This document shows, piece by piece, positions 54,803 through 56,808 of a stretch of DNA of 64,000 nt. Origin of the DNA: Shimia aestuarii (GTDB lineage: Bacteria > Pseudomonadota > Alphaproteobacteria > Rhodobacterales > Rhodobacteraceae); assembly GCF_900114635.1 (NCBI RefSeq), contig NZ_FOTQ01000003.1, positions 188,501 to 252,500 on the forward strand, in the 5' to 3' direction. Below the pieces are notes generated by a model. The model had not been told where the DNA came from, did no database searches, and saw nothing but the letters and a program-made list of their open reading frames with translations. How positions within the stretch are numbered: position 1 is the first letter of the stretch; every line of letters starts with the position of its first letter. A program made the translations under genes and the position numbers.

Positions 54803-54977
54803 GGGAAGGTGATCTGTCCGGCGAAGATAGGCGTAATGGATATAGCTGTGATGGCAGCAATATGAAACATTTACCAGTGCTCGTACACGAGGCCGTGAGC
54901 GAAATGCAGCAAATCTTGTCGTGGACGTGAAGCGGGTCCACATCGCGGGTGTACGTAAGAGAGGGCGAGGAGGTCAC

Positions 54978-55664
54978 ATGGCACAGCTCAAGAAAATCCT
55001 GTTGGTGGATGACGACGAGGACCTGCGCGAGGCGTTGTCCGAGCAGTTGATCATGACCGAAGATTTTGACGTGTTCGAAGCGGGCAATGGTTCGGAGGCA
55101 ATGAGCCGGGTCAAGGAAGGCCTGTATGACATGGTCATTCTCGATGTCGGGTTGCCGGATACGGACGGGCGGGAGCTTTGTCGGCTGATGCGCAAGCAGG
55201 GGGTGAAAAGCCCGATCCTCATGCTTACCGGGCATGACAGCGATGCCGATACGATCCTTGGCCTTGATTACGGAGCGAACGACTATGTGACCAAGCCGTT
55301 CAAGTTTCCGGTACTTCTGGCGCGGATTCGGGCGCAGCTGCGTCAGCACGAGCAGAGCGAAGATGCTGTGTTCCAGCTTGGGCCGTACACGTTCAAGCCG
55401 AGCATGAAGATGCTGATCACCGAAGACGAGCGCAAGATCAGGCTGACCGAGAAAGAAACCAATATTCTCAAGTTCTTGTACCGGTCGACAGATGGTGTCG
55501 TGGCGCGTGATGTGCTGTTGCACGAGGTCTGGGGATACAATGCGGGTGTCACGACACATACGCTGGAAACACATATTTACCGGCTGCGTCAGAAGATCGA
55601 ACCCGACCCCTCTAACGCCCGTTTGCTGATCACGGAATCGGGGGGCTATCGGTTGGTGGCGTGA
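54978..55664 (+). CDS. OmpR-family response regulator (CenR-like)
   Basis: This protein is 228 aa from ATG 54978 (GAGGAGGTCAC upstream). The receiver domain has acidic pocket LLVDDDEDLRE, phospho-Asp in DMVILDVGLPDTDGREL and Lys in ANDYVTKPFKFP. The winged-helix output domain reads RLTEKETNILKFLYRSTDGV and THTLETHIYRLRQKIEPDPS. The text is close to the alphaproteobacterial CenR group, which controls envelope growth; that identity is from memory and tentative. No sensor kinase gene is adjacent. Confidence 0.92.
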   Translation: MAQLKKILLVDDDEDLREALSEQLIMTEDFDVFEAGNGSEAMSRVKEGLYDMVILDVGLPDTDGRELCRLMRKQGVKSPILMLTGHDSDADTILGLDYGANDYVTKPFKFPVLLARIRAQLRQHEQSEDAVFQLGPYTFKPSMKMLITEDERKIRLTEKETNILKFLYRSTDGVVARDVLLHEVWGYNAGVTTHTLETHIYRLRQKIEPDPSNARLLITESGGYRLVA

Positions 55665-55723
55665 CTCCTATGCCGCAGTTTTCAACCTTTTGTTGATAAG
55701 CGCATGGCAGAATGAGCGGATTC

Positions 55724-55737
55724 TTGATATGTATCAA
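55724..55737. promoter_or_regulatory. FNR/FnrL box
   Basis: TTGAT-ATGT-ATCAA is a perfect match to the FNR consensus TTGAT-N4-ATCAA. Its centre (55730.5) lies about 40 bases before a predicted transcription start near 55770, with a TTATAT/TATATC -10-like element at 55758-55764, the position expected for class II activation. Confidence 0.82.
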
Positions 55738-55770
55738 AGAAGCATATGAACGATACCTTATATCAAGTCT

Positions 55771-55850
55771 TTACGGATCCCGCGCATGTCCGGGTTATGA
55801 CATGCACCTCCCTGTTGGACTGAGCCCGGATATGATCCGGGCTCTTTTTT
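55771..55850 (+). ncRNA. candidate FnrL-activated small RNA (about 80 nt)
   Basis: No ORF worth naming lies in 55665-56019. A predicted start about 40 bases after the FNR box and a strong terminator at 55822-55850 delimit an RNA of about 80 nt. It contains ATGCACCTCCCTGTTGGAC; its CCTCCCT core could pair with ribosome-binding sites of target mRNAs. An alternative is that this is only the 3' end of the response-regulator transcript, in which case the FNR box is spurious. Confidence 0.6.
55822..55850 (+). terminator. Rho-independent terminator
   Basis: GAGCCCGGAT-ATG-ATCCGGGCTC (10-bp perfect stem, three-base loop) is followed by TTTTTT. Confidence 0.93.
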
Positions 55851-55875
55851 GTTTTGGGCAGGTTTGTTCATGGGG

Positions 55876-55940
55876 CAGGGGGCGCAGCCGCCGTCGCAGC
55901 AAGCTGCGACTCCCCCGGAGTATTTCTGGCAAATTGAAAG
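55876..55940. repeat. palindromic GC-rich intergenic repeat, family B
   Basis: It contains GGGGGCGCAGCCGCCGTCGC, then GCAGCAAGCTGCGAC, CCCCCGGAGTATTTCTGG and AAATTGAAAG. It is nearest to the copy at 59151. Confidence 0.75.
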
Positions 55941-56019
55941 CGGGACGTGGCGCATATGCGTTGGCAAGCCGTGATCGGGCGGGGTAGGGTGCGCCGATCA
56001 CAGGCAACGGGAGCGCGGC

Positions 56020-56808
56020 ATGAGCTTTTCACTGGCAACTTGGAATATCAATTCGGTGCGGTTGCGTGAGCCGATCGTCCTCAAGCTGTTGCAGGAAGAG
56101 GCGCCGGACGTTCTGTGCCTTCAGGAGTGCAAGAGCCCGGTGGACAAAATCCCGACCGAGGGGTTCGCCGCATTGGGGTATCAACATATGATCGCGCGCG
56201 GACAGAAGGGATATAACGGTGTAGCGATCCTGTCCAAGCTGCCGATCGAGGATGTCGGGGATAAAGATTTCGCGGGGCTGGGCCATGCCCGCCATGTCGC
56301 GGGGCGGCTGGAAAACGGGGTGACGATCCATAACTTCTATGTTCCGGCAGGGGGGGACAAGCCGGACCGGGAGGTGAATGAGAAATTCGGGCAAAAGCTC
56401 GACTATCTTACCGAGATGCGGGACTGGTTTCATGGAGACAGGCCGGAGAAGTCGATTTTGGTGGGGGATCTCAATATCGCGCCGCGCGAGGATGATGTCT
56501 GGAGCCACAAGCAGTTGCTGAAGGTCGTGAGCCATACGCCGATAGAGGTGGAGCACCTCGCGCAGACACAGGAGGCCGGCGGCTGGGTGGACATCACCCG
56601 GCAGGATATTCCAGAAGGGCTGCTGTACAGCTGGTGGAGTTATCGTGCGCGGGATTGGGATGCGGCGGACAAGGGGCGGCGTCTGGACCATGTGTGGGCG
56701 ACGCCGGATATTTCGAACGCGGGCCATTCCAGCCGTATCCTGCGGGCGGCGCGGGGCTGGGAGAAGCCCAGCGATCACGCACCGGTCTTTGCCAGTTTTG
56801 ATCTCTGA
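56020..56808 (+). CDS. xthA: exodeoxyribonuclease III
   Basis: This 262-aa enzyme of the AP-endonuclease fold reads SLATWNINSVRLREPIVLKL, then CLQECKSPVDKIPTEGF (metal Glu), LVGDLNIAPREDDVWSHKQ, RRLDHVWATPD and the catalytic pair SDHAPVFASFDL. It removes nucleotides from 3' ends and cuts at abasic sites. The ATG of the next gene overlaps its stop (TGATG). Confidence 0.96.
   Translation: MSFSLATWNINSVRLREPIVLKLLQEEAPDVLCLQECKSPVDKIPTEGFAALGYQHMIARGQKGYNGVAILSKLPIEDVGDKDFAGLGHARHVAGRLENGVTIHNFYVPAGGDKPDREVNEKFGQKLDYLTEMRDWFHGDRPEKSILVGDLNIAPREDDVWSHKQLLKVVSHTPIEVEHLAQTQEAGGWVDITRQDIPEGLLYSWWSYRARDWDAADKGRRLDHVWATPDISNAGHSSRILRAARGWEKPSDHAPVFASFDL

Follow-up and report, generated by a model that had tools for sequence, protein, structure and literature searches.

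Between the gene for a CenR-like response regulator (its stop codon ends at 55664) and the gene for exonuclease III (56020–56808) lies a single block that resembles a transcription unit, with an FNR box, a −10-like element, an RNA body, and a terminator that ends at 55850. (Positions are those of the window, the 64-kb stretch of DNA that we analyzed.) Which RNA is encoded here, and how is its expression controlled? The initial annotation proposed a candidate sRNA that is activated by FnrL and would be an analogue of FnrS, the oxygen-controlled sRNA of enterobacteria. What the sequence encodes here is SorX, in a roseobacter-type Rhodobacteraceae bacterium. We consider it probable that this gene is fed by two inputs, which are read-through from cenR with trimming by RNase E and its own class-II FNR promoter, and that the RNA acts on ribosome-binding sites. 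The SorX family is known, and so, in part, is the binding of FnrL; the comparative evidence for the box and the promoter is new here. The features are:

54885–54899, + strand: CenR-box-like ACACGAGGCCGTGAG upstream of cenR, from the sequence and its likeness to ACACGAGCGCGTGAG of R. sphaeroides
54915–54943, + strand: RpoH-type promoter-like CTTG (54915–54918) and CACAT (54939–54943) for cenR; the motif recurs in relatives
54978–55664, + strand: cenR ortholog, an OmpR-family response regulator of 228 amino acids (ATG at 54978, stop at 55662–55664) with Response_reg and Trans_reg_C domains
55724–55737, + strand: perfect FNR/FnrL box TTGATATGTATCAA, from the letters and a pattern search; its position is conserved in relatives
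55758–55764, + strand: −10-like TTATAT (55758–55763) or TATATC (55759–55764), with a predicted start at about 55771–55772, from the sequence and the alignment of relatives
55777–55849, + strand: SorX sRNA (RF02784; 79.9 bits, gathering cutoff 46.6, E = 5.1e-18)
55779–55794, + strand: candidate pseudoknot stem S1, CCCG (55779–55782) with CGGG (55791–55794); the innermost pair covaries and the support is otherwise weak
55784–55805, + strand: hairpin stem S2, GCATGTC (55784–55790) with GACATGC (55799–55805), from the Rfam consensus structure line
55807–55820, + strand: anti-ribosome-binding-site stretch CCTCCCTGTTGGAC, invariant or nearly so across 131 loci
55822–55850, + strand: intrinsic terminator, a 10-bp stem (55822–55844; 7 of 10 pairs are G-C) and T6 (55845–55850)

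The perfect box in front of a −10-like element, the terminator with its perfect 10-bp stem and T6, the CCTCCCT in the RNA (55807–55813), and a unit of about 80 nt, which agrees with a start near 55771–55772, had all been described correctly. The claim that no ORF fills the interval needs qualifying: mechanically called ORFs do overlap it, but the one on the plus strand (55712–55987, 91 amino acids) crosses the terminator. This crossing disfavors a protein-coding reading, and the Rfam match and the conservation fit an RNA.

SorX and the neighboring cenR

The RNA is over the cutoff of the SorX covariance model, and it lies 3' of the ortholog of cenR (RSP_0847 of R. sphaeroides), as expected for SorX; 128 of the 131 SorX loci that we examined are joined to the end of a response regulator-like ORF. 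It also has the hairpin, the CCUCCCUGUUGGA core, and the terminator of SorX from R. sphaeroides. So the sRNA is not new, nor is it likely to be purely oxygen-controlled: SorX of R. sphaeroides is reported to be a singlet-oxygen and peroxide-stress sRNA which RNase E cuts from the 3' UTR of RSP_0847 (cenR). It reportedly shares a transcript with RSP_0847 that starts at an RpoHI/RpoHII promoter, is matured by RNase E (the mature 5' end is an RNase E cut), and is bound by Hfq.

Calling the adjacent gene CenR-like was right by position, as RSP_0847, the SorX-adjacent gene of R. sphaeroides, has been renamed cenR (PMC9275681). Its product is reported to be an essential response regulator that, by ChIP-seq, binds its own gene at ACACGAGCGCGTGAG (PMC9275681), and RSP_0847 appears in an RpoH regulon table. 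The product of the gene in our window matched Response_reg and Trans_reg_C, and no NCBIfam equivalog cutoff was reached among the 25 matches listed. Upstream of cenR, ACACG-N4-CGTGA (often as TGCAGCAA) is found in 66 of 80 named relatives, and CTTG-N16-20-CNCAW in 58 of 80 (mononucleotide shuffles: mean 0.85, maximum 3). Because the CenR-box-like and RpoH-like elements are present and recur in relatives, the stress route to SorX via an RpoH/CenR-driven cenR transcript is likely intact in this genome. We also noticed that the promoter region of cenR as a whole is strongly conserved (54885–54943 of the window and loci L035–L114).

SorY (RF02651) shares the core ACCUCCCUGUUGGACU with SorX, and our RNA scores 31.4 bits against the SorY model, but this is far under the SorY cutoff of 111. 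This genome has one SorX over the threshold and three weaker look-alikes, of which one is a SorY-like gene. The separate SorY-like gene, at C11:203460–203540 (L002/L251), has the same ACCUCCCUGUUGGACU core and scores 71.4 bits, also under the cutoff of 111. Weaker SorX-like matches are at C11:23489 and C20:29086. And in three other genomes, two copies of SorX, both over the cutoff, lie in tandem about 0.2–0.7 kb apart (G283:C5:242070 and 242285; G190:C76:17455 and 18098; G022:C183:9526 and 9749).

As for the analogy with FnrS, only the regulatory logic holds. Rfam includes an FnrS family, and FnrS was absent among the four Rfam matches of our RNA at E ≤ 0.1. Enterobacterial FnrS is likewise reported to be an sRNA gene under direct control of FNR (PMC4263372), but it lies at another genomic place, and SorX is also a stress RNA that is cut from an mRNA.

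A probable FNR-type promoter in front of SorX

In the 64-kb window, TTGATNNNNATCAA has a single perfect match, TTGATATGTATCAA. If up to one mismatch is allowed, there are 2 matches where 1.73 are expected; the site that stands out is therefore the perfect one alone. Across the 4.23 Mb of this genome, TTGAYNNNNRTCAA matches at 26 places, and the reversed control pattern at none.

Is the box kept in relatives? The SorX model matched at E ≤ 1e-3 in 282 of 295 genomes from the family and was over the cutoff in 232 of 295. From these 232 we examined 131 genomes, our own and 130 others, by rank of score. (One genome, G028, was skipped because its matches were near contig ends, and one genome from the same genus, G210, was added out of rank; this ranking favors high-scoring SorX genes.) A perfect TTGAY-N4-RTCAA (TTGAYNNNNRTCAA) begins 41–160 nt before CCTCCCT in 39 of the 128 cenR-linked loci, or 40 of 131 if the three unlinked loci are included; with up to one mismatch, 46 of the 128 linked loci have it. 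When these stretches were shuffled by dinucleotide, perfect boxes averaged 0.065 (maximum 1), and boxes with up to one mismatch averaged 1.8 (maximum 5). There were no perfect boxes in the final 133 nt of the cenR reading frame (0/128) or in downstream sequence (0/31, at loci with enough sequence). Furthermore, of the 39 perfect boxes at linked loci, 36 lie 71.5–87.5 nt before CCTCCCT. In a set of 80 named loci that partly overlaps the first set, 12 had no SorX core within 400 nt, and there were 26 perfect boxes at the 68 loci with the core. The initial annotation had suggested checking for a conserved position of the box across Rhodobacteraceae; in relatives, the box does recur at this position, far above shuffles.

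Among close relatives, where loss of the box would have spoken against the annotation, the picture is mixed. The box is perfect in G210 of the same genus (locus L129) and in Shimia locus L035; at Shimia locus L037 it is degraded, with two mismatches, and at Shimia locus L036 there is no SorX core within 700 nt. These differences might suggest a palindrome that lies near SorX by chance, but its recurrence at a fixed distance (39 of 128, with 0.065 expected) rules this out, as nearly as such counts allow. On a weak tree, the state of the box changes 25 times, and this, with the many FnrL-bearing genomes that lack it, indicates frequent gain or loss: of the 105 FnrL-bearing genomes, 71 have no perfect box and 53 have none at up to two mismatches. 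As most of the FnrL-bearing genomes that we examined lack a perfect box, it is not essential to SorX.

The architecture of class-II FNR promoters has the center of the box at −41.5, with a −10 element. We aligned, on the box, the 37 of 131 loci with a perfect box 70–90 nt before CCTCCCT. If the center is set at −41.5, then a CATCTTTA-like block appears at −18 to −11, with T at −13 in 32 of 37 loci, T at −12 in 32, and A at −11 in 28. The box is followed directly by A in 32 and G in 35 of these loci, and there is an unexplained preference for G, C, and A at −30 to −28 (26, 22, and 27 of 37; exactly GCA in 12 of 37). The class-II geometry thus fits in the window and in the 37 loci, with the start position predicted from the box. 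The −10-like element of our window is about 1 base closer to the box than in the CATCTTTA-type consensus of the relatives. The center of its box is 46.5 nt before the Rfam start, so the predicted start falls about 5 nt before the 5' end given by Rfam; at L006, L008, L009, L011, L012, and L015, the distance is 41.5 nt and the predicted +1 is the Rfam 5' end itself. By eye, in 17 of the 26 perfect boxes of this genome (including that of SorX), the −10-like block is not general, and many of these boxes may not be promoters. We also considered the box as the −35 element of an RpoH promoter (CTTG at 55723–55726 and CATAT at 55743–55747, by eye). Two observations disfavor this: relatives have the full palindrome far more often than shuffles do, and the base preceding the box is C in just 17 of the 37 aligned loci.

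Given that the box recurs at a mostly fixed spacing, that a CATCTTTA-like element occupies the −10 position of a class-II promoter, and that the 5' end of SorX falls near +1, we infer that lineages with the box have an FnrL-type promoter of SorX's own, besides the RpoH/CenR-driven cenR transcript. Under stress, the cenR mRNA, controlled by RpoH and CenR, would be read through and then trimmed by RNase E, as in R. sphaeroides. At low oxygen, FnrL would bind the box and recruit polymerase to the −10 element, and a start at about 55771–55772 would give a primary transcript of about 80 nt that ends at 55850.

Alternatively, SorX might come only from processing of the cenR 3' UTR, with FnrL at the box acting as a repressor or a roadblock or having no effect. 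SorX of R. sphaeroides is indeed reported to arise by processing of the RSP_0847 mRNA, and at L144, L184, and L208 the box is too near to the RNA for class-II activation. But 36 of 39 linked perfect boxes keep their distance, and a −10-like element is found repeatedly at the spacing of class II, which speaks against a roadblock: activation needs this element and roadblocking does not. We think this alternative is improbable. (At L144, L184, and L208, the perfect box is 43.5–44.5 nt before CCTCCCT, over the stop codon of cenR and directly before the start of SorX. Such a place would suit repression rather than class-II activation.)

R. sphaeroides itself is different from our window, which has a perfect box 46.5 nt before SorX and its own −10-like element. 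In R. sphaeroides (L024, identified by coordinates), the box is degenerate: TTGCGTGAGATCAA lies across the stop codon of cenR, 70.5 nt upstream of where SorX starts, with TATAAA at the matching distance. The published ChIP peak of FnrL may stem from this TTGCGTGAGATCAA. However, the end reported for pre-SorX (2,598,182) precedes the start predicted from the box (2,598,196) by 14 nt, so the predicted start does not explain this precursor.

FnrL or another regulator

This genome encodes FnrL: a protein scores 467 bits against NF045989 (cutoff 300) and has an N-terminal CX2CX7CX2C. Some match to FnrL at 1e-40 is found in 124 of the 131 genomes (70/71 and 54/60), and three of the seven genomes with no hit are under 90% complete. 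We counted hits with at least 66% identity as FnrL orthologs, a cut that was chosen after the values were seen; the identities look two-peaked. Where there is a box with up to two mismatches at 70–90 nt, 52 loci are from genomes with the ortholog and 3 from genomes without, as compared to 53 and 23 for the other loci (Fisher p = 3e-4, uncorrected for descent). For the perfect box, the counts are 34 and 3 against 71 and 23 (p = 0.05, again uncorrected for descent). In G266, G091, and G190, a second FnrL-like protein of 54–61% identity is found beside FnrL; elsewhere, a protein of this class is the only FnrL-like hit in some genomes.

In R. sphaeroides, a link between this locus and FnrL has been reported as well. 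RSs2461, the former name of SorX, has an FnrL ChIP-seq site whose regulatory effect was not established (2014, PMC4263372). That an sRNA with an FNR-type promoter lies by cenR, as the initial annotation proposed, is well supported by conservation; the binding of FnrL at this sRNA in R. sphaeroides had already been reported in 2014. In the parts of papers on R. pomeroyi, P. denitrificans, and R. capsulatus that our search covered, we found nothing that links SorX and FnrL.

The motif of the box does not separate FnrL from factors of the Dnr, FixK, or CrpK type. So the box might be used by another member of the Crp/Fnr family (Dnr/NNR, FixK-like, or CrpK) that responds to nitric oxide, nitrate, or another signal instead of to oxygen via FnrL. 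This genome has 16 matches to HTH_Crp_2, 8 of them over the cutoff, and three loci with the box lack an FnrL ortholog by the 66% cut. But the presence of the box tracks the presence of FnrL, and FnrL is reported to bind at SorX in R. sphaeroides; also, the covered part of the CrpK peak table names RSs0019 and does not name RSs2461. This makes another factor unlikely, in our view, and FnrL is the probable regulator.

A candidate pseudoknot and possible targets

We also considered how the two inputs could yield one RNA, and here our proposal is more tentative and quite possibly wrong. In many Rhodobacteraceae, oxidative or envelope stress would produce SorX from the cenR 3' UTR and loss of oxygen would produce an FnrL-dependent primary transcript whose +1 is close to the processed 5' end. 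An H-type pseudoknot at the 5' end (S1, CCCX/YGGG) would define the common end and present the anti-ribosome-binding-site stretch.

The Rfam structure line for SorX has a 7-bp hairpin and the terminator; the extra stem S1 is absent. At all 131 loci, the stretch before the hairpin can pair with the G-rich part of the loop, with at least three contiguous pairs. In our alignment (A1), the three G columns never vary, though L146 has a T inserted between them. The innermost pair of S1 is G-C at 70 loci, C-G at 31, U-G at 10, and U-A at 1, out of 130 (one locus has no plain GGG), and at 18 it is unpaired in the fixed register; shuffling gave a mean of 65.5 paired loci and a maximum of 86. Similarly, the presence of CCCG and of C before GGG is consistent at 121 of 125 loci (82 and 39) and inconsistent at 4. 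Since CCC and GGG are near-invariant, shuffling the partners hardly lowers the pairing in S1 (mean of 4.05 pairs, versus 4.06 when shuffled). At least four pairs are found at 106 loci (shuffles: mean 98.7, maximum 106), and the stem score is 11.46 (mean 11.02, maximum 11.27). On the 64 distinct combinations, the stem score is 11.19, versus a mean of 10.65, and the shuffle maximum ties at 11.19. Only the innermost pair is informative, and the statistics for the pseudoknot are mixed. (A column-based pair counter was left out because the 5' arm of S1 is out of register in A1.) On the tree, there are just three independent pairs with good support, about two of them agreeing and none opposing, which is not significant. 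The lengths of S2 and of loop L1 are correlated (Spearman 0.22, p = 0.012, with some ambiguity in the parse). In our window, the loops would be 1 nt, none between the stems, and 4 nt. The arrangement of S1 and S2 fits an H-type pseudoknot with a partly covarying stem, although covariation does not separate a pseudoknot from two alternative hairpins.

In the literature that we searched, we found no description of a lineage-wide dedicated FNR promoter, a covarying stem, or a pseudoknot for SorX; the main SorX paper (Peng et al. 2016) was beyond that search and may contain the promoter or the stem. About a third of the relatives examined have an FNR site that is placed to start SorX directly, and one RNA may serve both oxidative stress and lack of oxygen. 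If our proposal is correct, processing of an mRNA end and a dedicated promoter are two routes to the same RNA, one for each of two opposite oxygen states, and an oxygen-responsive riboregulator like FnrS exists in marine roseobacters. The FnrL ChIP site at RSs2461 of R. sphaeroides, for which no effect had been settled, would then have a function, and a pseudoknot would change how the processing of SorX and its pairing with targets are modeled.

The CCUCCCUGUUGGAC stretch of SorX would pair with the ribosome-binding sites of target mRNAs and repress them. Repression of potA is expected of a SorX, and among potA-like genes, start regions were screened for three of five loci over the cutoff, with many starts tried, and the best energy was −20.3 (L256; 5% background −19.1). 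An ABC transporter ATPase other than PotA (L259) had a better pairing energy (−26.1) than any potA-like gene. We also searched this genome for ACAGGGAGG-N2-10-ATG, which would pair perfectly with CCUCCCUGU, and found seven matches (reversed control: 0). Three of these, two of which overlap, are antisense to SorX or to the SorY-like gene. The other four precede a TRAP solute-binding protein (DctP), a 24-codon frame, a 4HBT thioesterase, and an SBF symporter. By our own estimate, with equal base frequencies, about 4–5 sites are expected by chance, so their number is not evidence of targeting. The sites at C15:36557 (DctP), C17:202528 (4HBT thioesterase), and C18:50051 (SBF symporter) are fully complementary to the SorX/SorY core. 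TakP is a reported target of SorY, and our DctP candidate is at most a possible TakP. A match to this DctP at 1e-60 is found in only 4 of 120 genomes, our own included. Its ortholog in G031 (85% identical) retains ACAGGGAGG, and a 42% identical homolog in G053 has CAGGGAGG.
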